DNA of 64,000 bases, taken from Pseudomonadota bacterium (GTDB taxonomy: Bacteria > Pseudomonadota > Gammaproteobacteria > Steroidobacterales > Steroidobacteraceae). Position 1 is the first letter of the stretch; every line of letters starts with the position of its first letter. Shown here piece by piece: positions 39,361-64,000 of this stretch. The notes below the pieces were generated by a model. That model had not been told where the DNA came from. It searched no databases and saw only the letters and a program-made list of their open reading frames with translations. The DNA is taken from NCBI GenBank assembly GCA_021847105.1, contig JAJZUT010000006.1, forward strand, positions 1 to 64,000. The letters are read 5' to 3'. The position numbers and the translations under genes were made by a program.

Positions 39361-41247
39361 ATGAGCGACAAGATCAGCCGCCGCGATCTGCTGAACGGCG
39401 TCGCGCTTCTCGTTGCCGGAGGTCTCGCGCCGCTCGGCGCCCTCTCACCCCTTGCCCAGGCGCGGGATGCGCCACCGGGCGAGTATCCACCGCTGCTCGA
39501 AGGGCTGCGCGGTGATGAACCGGGTTGCTTCGAGATCGCACATCAGGTTGCCCGTGCAGGCCGCTCGTTCGAGATCGGCGGCCTACCCATCGATGAACAC
39601 TACGATCTGGTGGTCGTCGGGGGCGGGGCGAGCGGGCTGGCAGCAGCCTGGTTCTATCGTGAGCAGCACGGCGCCTCCTCACGCATTCTGATTCTCGAGA
39701 ATCACGACGATTTTGGCGGGCACGCGAAGCGCAACGAATTTTTCGTCGATGGTCATCACCTGATCGGCTACGGCGGCAGCGAGTCTCTGCAGTCGCCGCA
39801 TCACCTGTTCAGTCCCACCGTCAAACGTCTGCTCGGCGAGCTTGGCGTGAGCCTCAGCGAGGCTCAATGGGAGCGCTACTTCGACCGCTCGCTATACGGC
39901 TCGCTGGGGCTGACCAACGCCACCTTTTTCGATCAGGAGACCTTCGGCGTTGACCGGCTGGTCGTTGGCACCCCCACGGTCACCGGCGCCGATTCCTGGG
40001 CGAGCGAGCTACGCCCGGCGCGGCCCATCGAGGCCGTCGCCGCGGAATTTCCCATGTCGGCTGCCGCGCGTGCCCGGCTCATCGCACTCTACCGCCACCC
40101 GCGCGATCACTTGGCGGGCAAATCGACGGCCGAGAAAATCGCCTACCTGCGCCGGGTGAGCTACCGCGACTATCTGATCCGCGACGCCGGCCTCGGCCGC
40201 GAAGCGGTGAAGTTCTTCGACGGCTCCACCAAGGACTTCTGGGGCATGGGGCCGGACATCGTACCGGCATATGGCGCCCTGACCAGCCAGTATCCCGGCT
40301 TCGCCGGCTTGGGTCTTGAGGAGCAGATCGACCCCGCCTACCGCGAGCCCTATATCTATCACTTCCCGGACGGCAATGCGTCCATCGTTCGGCTTCTGGT
40401 GCGCAGTCTGATCCCCTCCGTCGCCCCCGGGAACACCATGGTGGATGTCGTGCTCGCAAATTTCGACTACACGAAGCTCGACGATCCGGCGAGTGCGGTG
40501 CGGCTTCGACTGAATGCCACCGCCGTGAAGGCCGTGAACCGTGCCGATGGGGTCGACGTCGGCTACGTGCACGCCGGCCAGCTGCGACGCGTTCGCGCGC
40601 GGCATTGCGTGCTGGCCTGCTGGAACCGGATGATCCCGCACATGATGCCCGAGTTGCCCCTCGTGCAGCGCCAGGCGCTCGAGCTCTCGGTCAAACAGCC
40701 TCTGGTCTACGTCAATGTCGCACTACGCAACTGGCGCGCTTTCGCACGCCTCGGTGTCGAACGGATCAACAGTCCCTACGCCTATTTCTGCGACGTCAAG
40801 CTCGACTATCCGGTCGCGATGGGCGGCTATCGCAATCCGCGCACGCCGGCCGAGCCGATACTCATCCACATGATTCACGTGCCGCTCACGCCGAATCAGG
40901 GTCTCACCGACGTCGAACAGTACAAGGTCGGCCGCTATAAGCTGCTGAAGACGACATTCGCCGAATATGAAACCGAGATCGTCGCACAGCTCACGCGCAT
41001 GCTCGGCGCTGGCGGGTTCGACGCGACTCGCGACATCGCCGCAATCACAGTCAACCGCTGGCCCCACGGATACGCGTACACGTTCGATTCGCTGTTCGAT
41101 CGGCGGACCGATCCGATGCCTTACGTGATCGCGCGGCGACGCTTTGGCAACGTCACCATTGCGAACAGCGATGCCGGCTGGAATGCATACCTGCACGAGG
41201 CCATCGATGAAGCCTGGCGCGCCGTCAACGAGTTGCGCACGACCTGA
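39361..41247 (+). CDS. Tat-exported flavoprotein, spermidine-dehydrogenase-like
   Basis: A 628-residue FAD/NAD(P)-binding Rossmann protein. The N-terminus ISRRDLLNGVALLVAGGLA is a twin-arginine signal, so the folded flavoprotein is exported. The dinucleotide loop is VVVGGGASGLAAAW at about 84-97, followed by LILENHDDFGGHAKRNEF, where the Glu binds the FAD ribose. Late motifs NRWPHGYAYTFDSL and FGNVTIANSDAGW match the FAD-closing C-terminus of the spermidine dehydrogenase/amine oxidase group. Its paralogue is cut by the right window edge. Likely role: oxidation of an amine or polyamine in the periplasm, inferred from family and from the amine cluster it borders. It converges on qhpG. Confidence 0.75.
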   Translation: MSDKISRRDLLNGVALLVAGGLAPLGALSPLAQARDAPPGEYPPLLEGLRGDEPGCFEIAHQVARAGRSFEIGGLPIDEHYDLVVVGGGASGLAAAWFYREQHGASSRILILENHDDFGGHAKRNEFFVDGHHLIGYGGSESLQSPHHLFSPTVKRLLGELGVSLSEAQWERYFDRSLYGSLGLTNATFFDQETFGVDRLVVGTPTVTGADSWASELRPARPIEAVAAEFPMSAAARARLIALYRHPRDHLAGKSTAEKIAYLRRVSYRDYLIRDAGLGREAVKFFDGSTKDFWGMGPDIVPAYGALTSQYPGFAGLGLEEQIDPAYREPYIYHFPDGNASIVRLLVRSLIPSVAPGNTMVDVVLANFDYTKLDDPASAVRLRLNATAVKAVNRADGVDVGYVHAGQLRRVRARHCVLACWNRMIPHMMPELPLVQRQALELSVKQPLVYVNVALRNWRAFARLGVERINSPYAYFCDVKLDYPVAMGGYRNPRTPAEPILIHMIHVPLTPNQGLTDVEQYKVGRYKLLKTTFAEYETEIVAQLTRMLGAGGFDATRDIAAITVNRWPHGYAYTFDSLFDRRTDPMPYVIARRRFGNVTIANSDAGWNAYLHEAIDEAWRAVNELRTT

Positions 41248-53897: not shown

Positions 53898-54758
53898 ATG
53901 GCCACAAAAATCAAGAATCCGCCGGCGAGAAGCTCCCGGACAGCCGCGCGTAAAGCGGCGCCCCGCGCCGCAGATGCACCCGCACACGATCCGCTGTTCA
54001 ACGACTCGGCGCAAAAGGCGCTCGCGGTGCTCGAGGCTTTCGGCCGAGGACGCAGAATTCTTAAACTCGCCGAGACTGCGGAGCTTGCCGGCATCAGCAA
54101 GGCTTCGGCACAGCGCTGCATCCACACACTGGAGGTGCTTGGCTACCTGCGACGCGACCGGCGCGGCACAGGTTGGGCGCTCACGCCGCGCGCACTCGGC
54201 ATCGCCCACGCCTATCTCTCGGGCTATCGCCTGATCGAGCAGGCGACGCGCCATCTGGTGGACCTGAATCACGCCACCGGCGAGTCCGTCAGCTTGTCCG
54301 AGCCCGATGGGACCGACATGGTGTTCGTTGCCCGCTTCCCGAGCCACAAGCGCTTTCTCATCAACATGCCGGTCGGTACCCGCCTACCGATGTATTGCAC
54401 CGCTTCTGGGCGGGCTTATCTGTCGGTGGTGCCGCAGGGCGAGGCGCGTGAGCTGTTGCGTCAATCCACGCTGCGCGCGCTCACGACGCACACGGTCACG
54501 GACTTGAACCGCATCTTTGCACTCATCGAGTCTGCCGGGCACGATGGCTTTGCCTGCTCGGACCAGGAATGTTACCGGGGCGATCTCACCGTCGCCGCGC
54601 CGGTCATCGGCGAGGGCGGACATCCGGTCGGTGCCATCAACATCTCCGCCCCCACGAGCCGGTGGACGATCGAGGAGATGCGAGCGAAACTCGCGCCGCT
54701 CGTGGTCGAGACCGCCCGCGCCGTCTCAAGTGGCGCGGTGCCACAGGCTCACGGTTAA
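53898..54758 (+). CDS. IclR-family transcriptional regulator
   Basis: A 286-residue regulator. After a Lys/Arg/Ala-rich N-terminal tail, residues about 40-90 form the winged helix (ALAVLEAFGRGRRILKLAET, AGISKASAQRCIHTLEVLGY, LRRD), and residues about 105-275 the effector domain (NHATGESVSLSEPDGTDMVF, TASGRAYLSVVPQGEARELL, AAPVIGEGGHPVGAINISAP). ATG at 53898 is chosen because the operator-like palindrome lies upstream of it; the frame from 53841 would run through that palindrome. It is divergent from the TonB receptor/permease/qhp operon and probably senses an aromatic or amine-derived acid. Confidence 0.9.
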   Translation: MATKIKNPPARSSRTAARKAAPRAADAPAHDPLFNDSAQKALAVLEAFGRGRRILKLAETAELAGISKASAQRCIHTLEVLGYLRRDRRGTGWALTPRALGIAHAYLSGYRLIEQATRHLVDLNHATGESVSLSEPDGTDMVFVARFPSHKRFLINMPVGTRLPMYCTASGRAYLSVVPQGEARELLRQSTLRALTTHTVTDLNRIFALIESAGHDGFACSDQECYRGDLTVAAPVIGEGGHPVGAINISAPTSRWTIEEMRAKLAPLVVETARAVSSGAVPQAHG

Positions 54759-54783
54759 TTTGCCTCGAATCAGGAGCACTGAC

Positions 54784-55290
54784 ATGCCGAGATGTAAAGG
54801 CGAGATTGCACGCGCACTGACCCTGGGGATGGCGCTCCTGGCCGGACTCGCCTCAGTCGGCGCCGCGCGGGCTGCAGACTCGGGCCACAGCGCCGTGTTT
54901 GATGCCAATTGTTCCATGTGCCACCAGCTACGTGCCGCCGGAGTGCCGGGACAGTTCCCGCGCCTCGCCGGGCGCGCCGGCAAGATTGCCGCCACGCAGG
55001 CAGGCCGGCGCTACCTGGAGCATGTGGTGCTGTACGGCATGATGGGTACGATTACCGTCGATGGCAACCAGATCGTGGGCGGAGTTATGCCCTCCTTCGC
55101 CTCGCTGTCTGACCAGGATCTCGCCGCCGCGCTCAATTACGTGATCAGCCTGAATGCCGCGGGCAAGCTGCACTGGAAGGGCTCCGTCATAACCCCCGCA
55201 GCGCTCGCGCATGTGCGCGCCGGCAAGCCCTGGTCCGCGATGCAGGTCCATCAGCTGCGCACCACCGTCCTCGGTAAGCCGCATCGATAG
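54784..55290 (+). CDS. Periplasmic monoheme c-type cytochrome
   Basis: A 168-residue exported cytochrome. Signal peptide (ALTLGMALLAGLASVGAARA), heme motif CSMCH in FDANCSMCHQLRAAGVPG, and a distal Met candidate in GGVMPSFASLSDQDLAAALN, the usual class I pattern. ATG 54784 is preceded by GGAG. It lies 25 bases after the IclR stop, so it is co-transcribed with the regulator. It may take electrons from the amine dehydrogenases or the PQQ enzyme encoded around it. Confidence 0.88.
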   Translation: MPRCKGEIARALTLGMALLAGLASVGAARAADSGHSAVFDANCSMCHQLRAAGVPGQFPRLAGRAGKIAATQAGRRYLEHVVLYGMMGTITVDGNQIVGGVMPSFASLSDQDLAAALNYVISLNAAGKLHWKGSVITPAALAHVRAGKPWSAMQVHQLRTTVLGKPHR

Positions 55291-57609: not shown

Positions 57610-59916
57610 TCATGTCCGGGACACGCTTTCGCCCACAGGGAGATGCCGAATGCGCTGCCCCGTGGCCGCAAAGATGGCGTTGGCAAACGCCGGCGCGATC
57701 GGCGGCATGCCCGGCTCGCCGACTCCCCCGAGTGGCACCTCGAAGCCCGCTTGCTGCACGTGCACATGGATCTCCCGTGGCGCTTCGGGCAGACGCAACA
57801 GGGGATAGTCGTTGAAGTTGGATTGCTGCACCCGACCGTCCTTGAACGTGATCGCACCATGCTTGGCCACCGTGAGACCCATGATGCACGCCCCTTCCAG
57901 CTGAGCGCGTACCCGGTCCGGGTTGACCTGCGGACCACAGTCAAAGGCGATGTCCACCCGCGGAACTGCAATCCGGCCCGACCGGTCGACCTCGACCTCG
58001 ACCACCGCCGCGGCATAGCTCATGAAGCTGTAGGTGGCTGCCAAACCCAGCCCCCGTCCCTTCGGCAGCGCTCGGCCCCAACCCGCCTCGCGCGTAGCCC
58101 GCTCGATCACCGCGCGCCATCGTCCGGTATCGAGCGGATAGCGGCGCGGAGACTCGCCGTAGTTCCACTGATCCGACAGCGTACGCGGGTCGATCCGACG
58201 GTCCGGTCCCAGCAGCGACAGTTGGTACTCCCGCGGGTCACGCCCTGCCGCATGCGCCAACTCGTCGATGAAGCTCTGGATCGCGAAACCGTGCGCGATG
58301 TTGTACACGGAGCGGAACCAGCCGATGCGCGTGTAGGCGGGCACCTTCGGAATTTCCAGTCGGATATTCGGGATGCGGTACGGGATGTTGATCATTCCCA
58401 TGCCGTATTCGCTCGAATCCTCCCCCTCCGCTCCGGCCACGAAGGTCGCATCCTCGGTCGGGGAAGCGGAACGGTGCAACCATGCAAGCGGCAATCCATC
58501 GGGCCCGAGCACCGCCTCCAGCCGCTCCATCGCGACGGCCTGGTAGTAGTCGTGGCGAATATCATCCTCGCGGGTCCACATGACTTTGACAGGCGTCCCA
58601 CCCATCGCTTTGCTCAGCACAGCGGCTTCACCCGCAAAATCCCCGAGTGACTTGCGCCCGAAGGCACCGCCAAGCAAGGTCACATTCACGGTGACGTCCG
58701 ATTCCTTCATGCCGAGCAGTCCGGTGATCAGATCGCGCGTCCCTTGCGGATCTTGCACCGGCGCCCAGACTTCGCAGTGACCGGCAACGATGCGGGCGGT
58801 CGCCGCCGGCGGCTCCATCGAGGCATGGGCGAGAAACGGCAGGTAGTACTCGGCCTCGATCCGCCGGGGCGCTGCCTGCAGCGCAGACAGTGCGTCGCCG
58901 TCGTTACGCACGACCTCGGCCGGCCGACGAACCGCCTGCTCCAACTGCCCCTCGAACCGCTGCGAGTCGAAGCTCGCGTTCGCGCCATCGTGCCAGCGGA
59001 TCTTCAGCGCCTCACGGCCCTTGATGGCCGCCCAGGTATTGCGCGCCAACACCGCCACGCCCCCCAGCGGATACGCCTGGGCCGGCAGCGGATGCGCGGC
59101 GATCTCCACCACGCGCACCACTCCCGGGACCGCCAGTGCGGCACGCGCGTCGTAGTCGATGAGCCTGCCGCCGAGCACCGCAGGTCGCGCGACGACGGCA
59201 TAGAGCATCCCTTCAAGGCGCGTATCGATGCCATAGCGGGCCCGTCCGGCGACGATATCCGCGCCATCGATGGCCCGCGTGCTCAGTTTGCCGATATAAC
59301 GAAACTGCTCCGGACTTTTAAGCCGGACCCGCTGGGGGTCGGGAACGGCCTCGCGGGCTGCCGCTTGAGCGAGATCTCCGTAGGAGAGGTGCCGTCCGCT
59401 CGCGCGGTGCCAGAGTTGCTGCGCCTCGGCATGCACCTCGCTCACCGGCACGCCCCAGTGCGCGGCCGCTGCGCTTTCGAGCATCATGCGCGCCGCAGCG
59501 CCCACCCGCCGCATGGGTCCGAAAAAATGGCGCATGCTGCGCGAACCGTCGGTATCCTGGTTACCATAGCGCGCCTGATCCCCTGGCGCCTGCACCACCC
59601 TCAGCCGCGGCCACTCGGCCTCCAATTCATCGGCGACCACGAGCGCCATGCTGGTTCGAATCCCCTGACCCATCTCCGGGCGCGCCACCGTTATCGTCAC
59701 GGTGTCATCCGGATGAATCGCCACGAAGACCAGCGGATTCTCCACCGCCCCGCCCGGCTCAGCGTCCACTCCGTACTTGCGTGAGGCAGTGCCCGCCAAG
59801 GCAATCTGCCCGGACTCGTGCAGGCACAGCACGAGAGCACCGGCCACCACACCCTTCAATACCGTGCGGCGAGTTACCCCGTGCGCGCGCTCGAGCGCAT
59901 CGTGCTGTTCCGTCAT
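57610..59916 (-). CDS. Molybdopterin subunit of an isoquinoline 1-oxidoreductase/aldehyde dehydrogenase-type enzyme
   Basis: A 768-residue protein of the xanthine oxidase family, IorB branch. The N-terminus [20 protein letters not shown] is a Tat signal. [20 protein letters not shown] and [19 protein letters not shown] are Mo-cofactor-binding motifs, and [20 protein letters not shown] carries the catalytic Glu region (GxGE). With its 2Fe-2S partner and the cytochrome upstream it probably oxidises the aldehydes released by the amine dehydrogenases, by family analogy. ATG 59916 overlaps the 2Fe-2S gene stop by 4 bases. Confidence 0.9.
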
Positions 59917-60383
59917 GGCGTCTCCCTCAGCTGTTGCGCCGCCTGATGGATCGCGGCACGGATGCGTGGATAGGTGCCACAACGGCAGAGATTGCCGGCC
60001 ATGGCCGCATCGATCTGGTCATCGCTCGGTTGGGGCGTTGCGCGCAGCAGTGCCACGGCGCTCATGATTTGCCCGGCCTGACAGTACCCGCACTGTGCCA
60101 CGCCGAGCGCCAGCCATGCCGACTGCACGGCGCGTCCAATCCGCCCCTCGCCAGCCGCTTCGATGGTGGTGATCGACTTGCCCTGCACCGCCGCGAGCGG
60201 CGTGAGGCACGCTCGCACCGGCTCGCCCGCAACATGAACCGTGCAGACCCCGCACAGCCCCATCCCGCAGCCAAATTTCGCCCCGGTCAATCCCAACTCG
60301 TCCCGCAGCACCCACAACAGTGGCGTGTCCGGCGCAGCGTCCACGTCCACGGAACGTCCGTTGATGTGCAATGTGAGCGCCAT
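59913..60383 (-). CDS. 2Fe-2S subunit of the Mo-dependent aldehyde/isoquinoline oxidoreductase
   Basis: A 156-residue iron-sulphur subunit, IorA type. The plant-ferredoxin cluster is [15 protein letters not shown] plus a later Cys in RACLTPL, and the second cluster is [11 protein letters not shown] with [12 protein letters not shown]. No signal peptide is present; it would be carried through the Tat pore with the molybdopterin subunit. The gene lies 11 bases after the cytochrome c gene and overlaps the large subunit by 4 bases. Confidence 0.92.
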
Positions 60384-60394
60384 GGACTCTCCAA

Positions 60395-61039
60395 TCAGCT
60401 ATTGGGGCGGGAAGCGGATTTTACCCCCGGACCGTAACCGGCGCTGCCATAGACGCTGAGCGCTGCAGGTGCGGCGCATTGCCTCTGCAGTCGCGCCACT
60501 ACTTGATTGCGGTAGCGCGTCAGCCCCGTCTGCGTCAGCGGTTCGTGGCGCAGCCGCGTCACCTCAGCCACTGTATAAGGATGCGCGCCACGCCCGACAG
60601 ACGCCGGCGCGCCGAGATCGAACACGACCCAGTTCATGACCCGCGTCAGCATCCGGTCCGACAGGCTGCTTAAGGCCACATCGGGTAGCCGCACGAGGAA
60701 CTGCCGTCCCTGGCGCGTGCAGAGAAAACTTCCGGTCAGATGCCGCAACGTCGGCACCGAGCGCGGCGCCGAGACGCCTTCTACTCCGTGGCAGCCCCCG
60801 CAGGAAGTCAGATACGCAACCTGCACCGCCGTGAGGTGGCTGACCGCATGTCCCGCGGAAGAAGGGGCCGGCGGGCCGGCGGCATGTGCCGGCCGGGCTG
60901 TGGCTATGGCGGGGGCCGCCACCGCAGCGCTGCGCGCCGCCGCGAGGCCGATGCATCCCCCGAGGCACCAGAGCGTAACCGCGAGCGCGCGCAGCAGCCG
61001 CGGGCCACCGCTTGCCCACTGCCCAGCGCGCAGATTCAT
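60395..61039 (-). CDS. Monoheme c-type cytochrome of the TTQ dehydrogenase operon
   Basis: A 214-residue exported protein with one heme motif, CGGCH in [13 protein letters not shown] at about residues 77-89. The signal region is [23 protein letters not shown] 61039 overlaps the light-chain stop by 4 bases. It is too short and has too few hemes to be MauG, the diheme enzyme that completes TTQ. Most likely it is the electron acceptor of the amine dehydrogenase or of the Mo enzyme encoded after it. Confidence 0.82.
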
Positions 61040-61569
61040 TCCGCCAATCCCACCAACACTGCCATCGAACAGTGATACTCGAAGCTGTTGGTCCCAAAAC
61101 ACCAGATGATGTGATTGTTCGCCTGCGGCCGGTAGATCGGCATCGCATGATCGGTGTTGAGGCAACTGCATTTATTGCATTCATTGGCGCCGCAGCAATC
61201 CCGGTAGGCGATCAGGTAGGCGCGCTGATCGTCGGGATTGATGCAGCTGCCGATCCACGAAGTCGGCGAGGGCTGCGAGCCGGGCGGACAGGAATGCACG
61301 CTGCCTCCGCAGCACGAACAGAGATTGCCGTCGATGCCGCAATAGCGCCAGTAATTGCACGCTGTGTCATCGTGCGTTTGGGCCGCACGGCTGAAGTCCG
61401 TGCCCTGCGCCGGTTCCGCCGCACGCGCACGCTGCACAGGCAGTAGCGGAAACAGCGGCGCAGCGACCAGGAGTGCCCCAAATCGCGACAGCATGCTGCG
61501 CCTGGAAACCCGACCGGCCAGGCGCCGGGTCAGCCGCTCGCTCCACTTGTCCAGATCAGATCGTTGCAT
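61036..61569 (-). CDS. mauA: TTQ amine dehydrogenase light chain (MauA/AauA family)
   Basis: A 177-residue precursor with a twin-arginine motif VSRRSML in a 50-residue leader. The mature part has the Cys-rich fold of methylamine and aromatic amine dehydrogenase small subunits: NYWRYCGIDGNLCSCC, TSWIGSC, AYRDCCG, NNHIIWCFG. Trp105 and Trp156 fall at the positions of TTQ-forming Trp57 and Trp108, and Asp80 and Asp124 at those of Asp32 and Asp76, all with identical spacing. Fourteen Cys are present against the usual twelve. ATG 61569 is 1 base after the heavy-chain stop. Methylamine versus aromatic amine preference cannot be decided. Confidence 0.93.
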   Translation of the reverse strand: MQRSDLDKWSERLTRRLAGRVSRRSMLSRFGALLVAAPLFPLLPVQRARAAEPAQGTDFSRAAQTHDDTACNYWRYCGIDGNLCSCCGGSVHSCPPGSQPSPTSWIGSCINPDDQRAYLIAYRDCCGANECNKCSCLNTDHAMPIYRPQANNHIIWCFGTNSFEYHCSMAVLVGLAE

Positions 61570-61570
61570 G

Positions 61571-62773
61571 TCATTCACCTCGCACTCTGACCAGGCCCGG
61601 CGCCACAATCTGCGTAGCCCGACCCACTGCGCCCGACTCGGCATTCATCACCCACAGCCACTGGTGCGACAGCGCGAACAGCAGCGGATGCGTATCCTGC
61701 GTCACTGCGACCAGATAGGCTGACTCCGGCACCGCCCAGCGATCGAGCAGTCGATGCGTGCGCGTATCAAGCACCCAGATCTGCCGGCCGGGCTTCTCAA
61801 AGCTCCAGGCCGGCCCCTCGTGCATCAGCACGAAGAGTCGATGGCGCGACGGCTCGTAGGCAAAGGGCACCTGTCCTCCGGGACGCCAGGTGATCTGGCC
61901 GACGTGCGAAGTGGCCGGTGACATGCCCGCCGCCTCCTCGATGGACCAGGGCTTACCGAACCGGGGGTTATCGGCCAGGTGCACCGGGTGCACCCAGCCG
62001 TCATAGGTGATGAACAGCGCCCGTCCGCTGTGCTCGTCGGCAACGCTCTCGTCCATTACCGGATCGTGCATGACATCAAAAAAGCGCTTGGTGCGCCGTA
62101 CCGTGTAATGGCCCTGCGGGTCGACGTCCGCCACTGCGAGCGATCCATCGGCGCACAGAGAGGCAAAGCCGCGCTTGCCGAAGGGAAACACCAGCCCACA
62201 GCCGGGGACTTCGACCGACGTCAGCACCTTGCGGGCATGCAGGTCGATCACGCTGACGGCGGGCGCCGGTTGAAAGCTGTAGACGTATCCGTAATGCCCA
62301 TCCGGACTCAGCGCGAAGGTGTGCGTCTTTGGATCGGAGATCAACCGGCCCGGCAGCGCAATCTCGCCCTCGTTCGCAAGCGTCGGCCCCCCGTATATCG
62401 ACAGCACATCTTCGCGCTTGCCCCGATTGCCCAACGTCCAATAGGTCTCCGAGATGTACAGCGTGCGGTCATCCGGTGCCCAGGCAAAATTCGCGTATTG
62501 CGACGAGTACACGGTCGCTACATCTTGCAGCGTATCCCCATTTATGATGCGCACACCCCCGCCCTCGAGCCCGTCCATCGCGCTGTAGCTGAGGTCGTGG
62601 GCGGTGAGTCCGTTGAACGCGGTCACGCCCGCCATCTCGCTCTGCAGCACGGGCGGGGTGTGCGTCGGCGGTGTCAGCGCAGCGCCCCAGGCCGGCATGG
62701 CCAGTCCCGCGCCGACCAGCAGCACCAGCGCGGCGCCGGCTGCGATACCCGTTCGGTATGCGATTCGCTTCAT
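61571..62773 (-). CDS. mauB: TTQ amine dehydrogenase heavy chain (MauB/AauB family)
   Basis: A 400-residue exported propeller. Signal peptide (GIAAGAALVLLVGAGLAMPAWG), then seven WD-like blades: VRIINGDTLQDVATV, FAWAPDDRTLYISETYW, RGKREDVLSIYGG, PGCGLVFPFGKRGFASLCAD, QIWVLDTRTHRLLDRW. The GKR-x2-VL-xIY phrase and the VPGC...F segment are characteristic of this subunit. It supports the light chain and shapes the substrate channel. Start ATG 62773 lies 1 base after the flavoprotein stop. Length is typical. Confidence 0.92.
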   Translation of the reverse strand: MKRIAYRTGIAAGAALVLLVGAGLAMPAWGAALTPPTHTPPVLQSEMAGVTAFNGLTAHDLSYSAMDGLEGGGVRIINGDTLQDVATVYSSQYANFAWAPDDRTLYISETYWTLGNRGKREDVLSIYGGPTLANEGEIALPGRLISDPKTHTFALSPDGHYGYVYSFQPAPAVSVIDLHARKVLTSVEVPGCGLVFPFGKRGFASLCADGSLAVADVDPQGHYTVRRTKRFFDVMHDPVMDESVADEHSGRALFITYDGWVHPVHLADNPRFGKPWSIEEAAGMSPATSHVGQITWRPGGQVPFAYEPSRHRLFVLMHEGPAWSFEKPGRQIWVLDTRTHRLLDRWAVPESAYLVAVTQDTHPLLFALSHQWLWVMNAESGAVGRATQIVAPGLVRVRGE

Positions 62774-62774
62774 A

Positions 62775-64000
62775 TTACGCCCCCTGAGTATTATGGGACA
62801 CAAACGGATAGGCCAGTTTCTCCAGCGCCTGCTCGACCGCCCAGTGCGCCGTGAGGAATGCCGCATCGGTGTGCGGACTCATGGCCGCATCTGCATTGGC
62901 GACTGAAATGCGTCCGAAGGGCTGCCGGGCCGTGACGCAGGAGCGCTTGTCGGTCTCGGTGAATACCCAGTCCATCGGATCCTCCAGGCTGCTGTACGTG
63001 TACGAATAACCATGACACCAGCGATTGACCATGATGCCAAGGACGTCCTTGCGCGGATCGAAGCCACCGGATCCGAGAACGCGCACGAGCTGCTCACGGA
63101 TGTTCCGCTCGAAAGTCTCAAACGACGTGCTCATCAGCTCCGCCCGGCCCATGGTGTATTGCGCCTTGCGCGGGTGCCCTGGAAAAGTCGGATAGCGCGT
63201 CATGGAAAGCGCGATCGGATCGCGGGGATGGGCCGAGTGGCGCAACGCGCCGAGGTCCACCGGCTCTGGAAGCCAGAACCGGTCGTGATACATCGTTGGC
63301 GTGACTACGGTGCTGATACCGAGTCTCTCGAATGCCTTCCAGTTGCGCAGGAACACCGTCGTGTACACGATCGGCGCCTTGATGTTGTACGCCAAGGCTT
63401 CCTTTTGCGTCTTGGGCAGCTCTGGGACGAGATATGGAATCATCATGTTCCAGTTGGCCATGATGCAGTAGCACGCCCGAACGTCGTAGAGCTTCCCGCT
63501 TGCGCTCGCCGAGGGGCTGTACGACACGATGACCTCGCGAGCCGTGGCCGGATCCCCGTCGTGACGAACATTGAGTACCGTATGGTTGAGACGGATGCGG
63601 GTCGAGTTTCCTGGACGATCGAATAGCGAATAATCGACGCGCGCCATGCCGACGTCCTCTTGCGTCGAGCCGGGTACCGCGGCGGGAATCAGCTTGCGGA
63701 CCAGCAGCCGCACCAATGTTGCATTGCCGTCTGGGAAATGCACGTCACCGTGCCCTGGGCGCTGGCGCCCGTGCATGCCACCGGGCAGGTCCGCCAGCAG
63801 GCCGCGCGGCAGTGGATCGAGCTTCAAGCCATAGAAGCCGGGCAGGCTGCCCATGCCCCAGGCAAACAATGCCGGCAGCACGTCCGCGCCCGTGCCGAAT
63901 ACGCTGCGTCCGAGATTGCGATAAAACCAGTAGGCCTGCGGGTCGAGCTTGACCACTTTGAGCAAGTAGTCCTCGAAGCTCATGCGCGCCAGCTGCTCGA
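62775..64000 (-). CDS. Flavoprotein of the spermidine-dehydrogenase-like group, N-terminus beyond the window
   Basis: About 408 codons of the C-terminal two-thirds are visible and the frame stays open to the right edge (...EQLARMSFEDYLLK). It aligns with the flavoprotein at 39361-41247: FEDYLLKVVKLD against YRDYLIRDAGLG, VHFPDGNATLVRLLVRKLIP, VNRWCHGYSYTYSSL and FGRISVANADAAM. The ATG at 63983 is internal, not the start. The FAD loop should be off-window. It is the gene immediately before the TTQ heavy chain (1-base gap), so it belongs to the same operon. Confidence 0.8.
   Translation of the reverse strand, partial: EQLARMSFEDYLLKVVKLDPQAYWFYRNLGRSVFGTGADVLPALFAWGMGSLPGFYGLKLDPLPRGLLADLPGGMHGRQRPGHGDVHFPDGNATLVRLLVRKLIPAAVPGSTQEDVGMARVDYSLFDRPGNSTRIRLNHTVLNVRHDGDPATAREVIVSYSPSASASGKLYDVRACYCIMANWNMMIPYLVPELPKTQKEALAYNIKAPIVYTTVFLRNWKAFERLGISTVVTPTMYHDRFWLPEPVDLGALRHSAHPRDPIALSMTRYPTFPGHPRKAQYTMGRAELMSTSFETFERNIREQLVRVLGSGGFDPRKDVLGIMVNRWCHGYSYTYSSLEDPMDWVFTETDKRSCVTARQPFGRISVANADAAMSPHTDAAFLTAHWAVEQALEKLAYPFVSHNTQGA

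Follow-up and report, generated by a model that had tools for sequence, protein, structure and literature searches.

A methionine-less cytochrome c encoded behind mauA is a candidate for completing tryptophan tryptophylquinone in a mauG-free amine dehydrogenase operon

Predicted amine dehydrogenase operon at the window edge

The window analyzed here is a stretch of 64,000 nucleotides from a Steroidobacteraceae bacterium (GenBank assembly GCA_021847105.1; contig JAJZUT010000006.1, our C38, positions 1-64000), whose assembly amounts to 4.02 Mb in 51 contigs and is rated 88% complete. Its right-hand end holds part of a minus-strand operon for a predicted amine dehydrogenase carrying tryptophan tryptophylquinone (TTQ), and our subject is how that cofactor might be completed by an operon without mauG. 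The genome and the locus are labelled G000 and L004 below, and coordinates above 64000 continue the window numbering to the right. Read from right to left, the genes are as follows:

67962-about 68504, minus strand: mauE (PF07291, 84-85 bits)
67366-67962, minus strand: mauD (TIGR02661, 188.9 bits against a cut-off of 188.6)
65833-67158, minus strand: DAO-family oxidase dependent on flavin adenine dinucleotide (FAD) (PF01266, 229.7 bits)
64934-65836, minus strand: TauE/SafE-like gene (PF01925, 52.9 bits)
62775..64802, minus strand, crossing the window edge at 64000: SpdH-family flavoprotein with a Tat-like N-terminus (PDB 7d9i, 438-440 bits, full length)
61571..62773, minus strand: mauB-like heavy chain (PF06433, 125.5 bits, cut-off 21)
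61036..61569, minus strand: mauA-like light chain, the TTQ precursor (PF02975, Me-amine-dh_L, 174.8 bits; TIGR02659, 209.3 bits against a cut-off of 196.85)
60395..61039, minus strand: mono-haem cytochrome c without an axial methionine ("type A"), its ATG overlapping the mauA stop (ATGA)
59913..60383, minus strand: 2Fe-2S subunit of a molybdenum hydroxylase (Fer2_2, 93.5 bits)
57610..59982, minus strand: molybdopterin subunit of the same hydroxylase (MoCoBD_1 and MoCoBD_2)

A pyrroloquinoline quinone-dependent dehydrogenase gene comes next after the molybdenum hydroxylase subunits. An initial annotation, made from the window alone, had correctly placed mauB one base from mauA and one base behind the flavoprotein gene, whose stop lies at 62775, and had seen that cytochrome and molybdenum hydroxylase genes come after mauA. 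It also described the operon as lacking mauD, mauE and mauG. All three are indeed missing from the part inside the window, but mauD and mauE lie on the same strand 3.4-4.5 kb to the right of it, an outcome that the initial annotation had itself named as refuting this half of its claim, and only mauG is still absent from the operon once that side is read. The further suggestion that TTQ maturation is supplied by a non-canonical factor was a fair one.

Aligned with methylamine dehydrogenase, the light chain conserves both TTQ tryptophans and both aspartates, as the initial annotation had noticed for the TTQ residues. The tryptophan pair and the aspartate pair are conserved in all 110 mauA genes that we compared. 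The light chain passes the methylamine dehydrogenase equivalog cut-off, whereas the heavy chain, a MauB-type beta-propeller by PF06433 as in TTQ amine dehydrogenases, falls far below it (130.3 versus 454.45 bits). With the canonical mau operon of Paracoccus denitrificans (L165) the window operon shares mauB, mauE, mauD, mauA and the conserved tryptophan and aspartate pairs, but it differs in the heavy chain score and in lacking mauF, amicyanin, mauJ and mauG; all matches to those models fall in loci other than L004. The aau cluster of Alcaligenes faecalis, as Chistoserdov is said to have described it in 2001, has no mauG and carries a small cytochrome gene behind aauA. The window operon resembles the aau cluster for aralkylamine dehydrogenase (annotated example, L166): both encode a TTQ light chain and a heavy chain, both carry mauE and mauD but no mauG, and in both the light chain gene is followed directly by one for a small c-type cytochrome. 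It departs from the contiguous aau order B-E-D-A in that mauE and mauD lie upstream, with three genes (for the DAO-family oxidase, the TauE-like protein and the SpdH-family flavoprotein) between mauD and mauB, and in the molybdenum hydroxylase genes that follow. The premise of the initial annotation that aau operons carry mauG fails for L166, with its annotated aauB and aauA, and for the remaining plasmid loci that we fetched with the same gene order. Taken together, the gene content points to a predicted TTQ amine dehydrogenase of an aau-like branch, with mauE, mauD, mauB and mauA and without a linked mauG. An extra light-chain cysteine pair was considered as a hallmark of this branch and rejected, as it varies inside the branch.

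The type A cytochrome and its company with mauA

The type A protein has a single CXXCH and the fold of the c552 kind, and the Pfam matches of its relatives are to cytochrome c; the second CXXCH and the PF03150 match that mark MauG are both missing. We aligned 111 of 113 type A open reading frames, leaving out those of L084 and L176, which have no complete CXXCH. None of the 111 has methionine at the axial-ligand position (L in 77, V in 32 and A in 2), as against 21 of 24 neighbouring c552-type cytochromes ("type B"). The other three type B proteins show V in that column and M in nearby columns, probably through an alignment shift. The loop that closes over the haem is lost as well, the corresponding stretch being 25-26 residues long in 110 of 111 type A proteins versus 43-50 residues in all 24 of type B. 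Compared with Thermus thermophilus c552 (1c52), the type A profile skips chain residues 49-70, which hold the axial ligand, Met69. The window encodes a methionine-containing cytochrome too, on the other strand:

54517..55290, plus strand: methionine-containing c552-like cytochrome c with motifs CSMCH and VMPSF, its true start lying later (PF00034, 41.6 bits)

It is a possible electron acceptor for the dehydrogenase.

We compared 109 neighbourhoods, comprising the window's own locus, the best 80 of 585 matches to the window (many of them from near relatives among sphingomonads), 13 loci from an evenly drawn class sample of 369 genomes and 15 plasmid loci. Sixteen plasmid loci had been picked by hand from 31 plasmid matches; L175, from Thermomicrobium roseum, was left out of the counts. 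Several loci stop at contig ends, where absence of mauG means absence from the fetched stretch. The 109 neighbourhoods contain 110 mauA genes, and 101 of the 109 (L177 included) have a type A gene on the mauA strand, at most 2 kb downstream and either directly behind mauA or one gene further on. The eight loci without type A are five with mauG and mauJ, one with mauJ and mauF, and those of two extra mauA copies in genome G169. An evenly drawn phylum sample of 398 genomes, which shares some genomes with the class sample (G000, G198 and others), added 11 new loci, which all have type A and lack both mauG and mauJ. One locus (L211, genome G361) has the order mauF-B-E-D-A and ends within mauA at a contig end, its downstream side unseen. 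In total, 121 loci divide into 112 with type A, six canonical mau loci without it, one canonical mau locus with unseen downstream DNA and two with neither. No mauG or mauJ was found in the fetched stretches of the 112 type A loci, and no type A in the six mauJ loci whose downstream DNA is visible. The pairing persists in L158, where mauA and type A stand together while mauB, mauE and mauD are missing from the locus.

The same company appears when whole genomes are searched with a type A profile (A2). Scoring covered the first 9-10 candidates from each genome, and the counts use the strong matches. In the class sample, 10 of 369 genomes match at 146-162 bits, all of them with mauA, and the next best score is 55.6 bits; weak cytochrome matches at E 0.001 occur in up to 256 of the 369. 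Three more genomes of the class sample have mauA (G119, G361 and G382); these are the ones with mauF or mauJ, and G361, which is 78% complete, yields weak matches only. In the phylum sample, type A is present at 1e-12 or better in 11 of 398 genomes, exactly those with full-length mauA, with 13 copies of each gene; two further PF02975 matches (G663 and G693) are short and score 22-25 bits. A light-chain tree, rooted at the midpoint only, places the six rows linked to MauG or MauJ in one clade (100/100) on a long branch, and the rest of the tree carries type A except for the two extra copies of G169. A possible start codon of the first cytochrome could be placed in 96 of 101 rows, and in 80 of the 101 it lies no more than 20 bases from the mauA stop or overlaps it. 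Because the type A gene of the window overlaps mauA, the cytochrome and the light chain are probably co-produced.

Candidates for completing TTQ

To our knowledge, no route to TTQ is established for dehydrogenases that have no linked mauG, aromatic amine dehydrogenase among them, and the part of the literature that we covered gave no account of TTQ maturation without MauG, of an aau-type cytochrome replacing MauG or of its missing methionine. We tentatively propose, at somewhat less than an even chance, that TTQ in this operon is completed by the type A cytochrome encoded directly behind mauA. MauD and MauE would handle the disulfides and folding of the cysteine-rich light chain, as in mau. 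In the periplasm, the haem of type A, left open by the loss of methionine, would bind and activate O2 or H2O2 to hydroxylate and cross-link the two light-chain tryptophans, replacing the di-haem MauG. Turnover electrons would pass to the type B cytochrome where there is one, or to another carrier. The likeness to MauG lies in the c-type haem and in a gene that accompanies mauA; the haem of MauG, too, is open. The differences are that type A has one CXXCH, is of the c552 kind and stands outside the PF03150 superfamily, and its role as a substitute for MauG is the proposed step. Extended to the family, the idea is a little more doubtful: most TTQ dehydrogenases may be independent of MauG. In the larger branch, the mono-haem c552 without its methionine loop would be co-produced with the light chain and be dedicated to TTQ synthesis, and MauG would be a solution peculiar to one methylamine dehydrogenase clade. 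The survey yields a named candidate for TTQ formation without MauG, one with strong matches found only together with mauA and with a predicted haem property. If real, a catalyst that hydroxylates and cross-links tryptophans with one haem would be a simpler tool than MauG. The cytochrome gene, which the initial annotation mentioned in passing, is in any case a better maturation candidate than the flavoprotein that it put forward.

Several observations weigh against these proposals, and they concern type A itself, its company with mauA and the spread of MauG-like genes. MauG needs two haems, and type A has one; the predicted type A model contains no haem, and a non-conserved residue may close the distal side. 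Genome G169 has three mauA copies (loci L155, L156 and L163), of which one is accompanied by type A and the other two stand without a cytochrome, and on the T. roseum plasmid (L175), with several mauA-like genes, neither type A nor mauG was found nearby. Moreover, the company of type A with mauA fits a dedicated electron acceptor or docking subunit equally well. This is the main rival, in which type A receives electrons from the dehydrogenase or docks with it and TTQ arises through another factor or without an enzyme, and we regard it as rather unlikely, though well worth weighing. Type A has a cytochrome c fold and stands directly behind mauA, in the slot that amicyanin occupies in canonical mau operons; a type B gene lies in the fetched stretch of just 42 of the 101 type A loci, and in the remaining 59 type A could therefore itself be the acceptor. 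The acceptor of the A. faecalis aromatic amine dehydrogenase is azurin. Two points speak against this rival. All 111 compared proteins have lost the axial methionine together with its loop, which would be odd for a pure electron carrier, and type A is retained even where a methionine-type cytochrome exists: in loci with both cytochromes behind mauA, type B already bears the methionine loop of an electron carrier.

Some PF03150 gene is present in 38 of the 68 type A genomes searched, including most of those from the two evenly drawn samples (eight of nine in the class sample and six of nine new ones in the phylum sample). Our alignment of this superfamily, 54 rows representing part of all matches, shows that at least 11 type A genomes, including the window's own, encode a protein with the MauG-like axial tyrosine; the other aligned proteins have methionine or histidine there. 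The initial annotation had advised a genome search for MauG, MauD and MauE; the latter two turned up in the operon and the former as one unlinked relative:

L006:7818-9515 (contig C7), minus strand: di-haem protein of 565 residues (PF03150), the sole member in the genome, adjoined by a multicopper oxidase gene

This protein groups with Paracoccus MauG (100/99) and retains H35, W93, Q103, E113, H205 and Y294, and so could be the TTQ maturase of its own genome. We nevertheless consider that quite improbable, given the proline that replaces Trp199, the multicopper oxidase gene at its side and the 30 of 68 type A genomes in which PF03150 has no match, a number that also led us to reject an unlinked MauG as a general rule. 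Genomes without a match include G002, G006 and G007 of the window's clade, all metagenome-assembled genomes (MAGs). In the best-match set, where the search took in 50 of the 80 loci, or 49 genomes (L009 and L014 being from one), 26 genomes have no PF03150 gene; 11 of these are MAGs and 15 are not marked as such, among them Sphingobium xenophagum NBRC 107872 and Novosphingobium nitrogenifigens DSM 19370. Nor was PF03150 found in G464 (6.2 Mb) or G590 (5.4 Mb), two single contigs rated 100% complete that both have type A, and if their light chains carry TTQ, a protein of the MauG superfamily is not required in all cases. PF03150 is present in all three canonical mau genomes.

The flavoprotein beside mauB was the candidate of the initial annotation, by analogy with QhpG, and to this we give very little credence. 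In its favour are the tight linkage to mauB, the Tat-like leader (SRRDFLNG; Pfam TAT 13.9 bits, below the cut-off), which would locate the protein in the periplasm, and its cofactors, if they are those of Pseudomonas aeruginosa SpdH, which binds FAD and haem b, the latter through His54 and His562, according to PMC12564564. The same likeness speaks against it. Among solved structures it is closest to four versions of SpdH (427-440 bits, among PDB 7d9f-7d9j), which it matches over its whole length; both haem ligands, as named in PMC12564564, align with its histidines in AAHHL and RWCHGYSY, and what distinguishes it from SpdH is its place in a TTQ operon. As to kinship with the QhpG/CmlS flavin monooxygenases, a PDB search with E up to 1 returned 43 sequences, SpdH first and none named QhpG. 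QhpG itself acts in the cytoplasm on unmodified tryptophan, as stated in PMC7876137. Surveying the gene beside mauA, as had been proposed, we found it directly before mauB only inside the window's clade, between tauE and mauB in L004, L009, L013 and, broken, L014, and missing from that position in L007, L008, L010, L012 and L015. At E 1e-30 it is absent from six of nine window-clade genomes (the window's own counted; the clade genomes are MAGs) and from six of nine others tried. A gene lost so freely among relatives is hardly the TTQ maturation factor, and its frequent absence and full-length SpdH homology led us to reject it in that role.

Other enzymes of the operon and further observations

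The SpdH-like flavoprotein, the DAO-family oxidase and the molybdenum hydroxylase would be catabolic partners that take amines through aldehydes to acids, and not maturation factors. In the window's clade, every locus fetched far enough to cover them (nine loci) has the DAO-family and TauE-like genes. They do not stand beside mauA in the sphingomonad loci, where DAO-family pieces are confined to the ends of L027 and L070; DAO-family genes were also found in L158 and L245. Both genes were rejected as general maturation factors, being missing beside sphingomonad mauA. SpdH-family genes lie 3-9 kb from mauA in three sphingomonad loci (L022, L062 and L064), and the window has a second one at 39361-41223 on the plus strand, 43% identical to that adjoining mauB.

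Two di-haem genes of other loci may be recorded here. The single-contig genome G198 encodes, at L147:967-2100 (minus strand), a protein with 52% identity to Paracoccus MauG; the type A-linked mauA of G198 lies about 1 Mb away. The di-haem gene beside mauJ in a canonical mau locus (L162:545-1588, minus strand) is of the methionine-ligand kind and not of the tyrosine kind of MauG. On the T. roseum plasmid, L175 1977-10666 holds mauA-like genes in a row, a mauE with a long N-terminal extension and mauD. To the right of the window's mauE, on the opposite strand at 69192-73742 (L004:14192-18742), lie an XdhC/CoxI-family gene and a second 2Fe-2S/molybdenum hydroxylase pair resembling the pair behind mauA.

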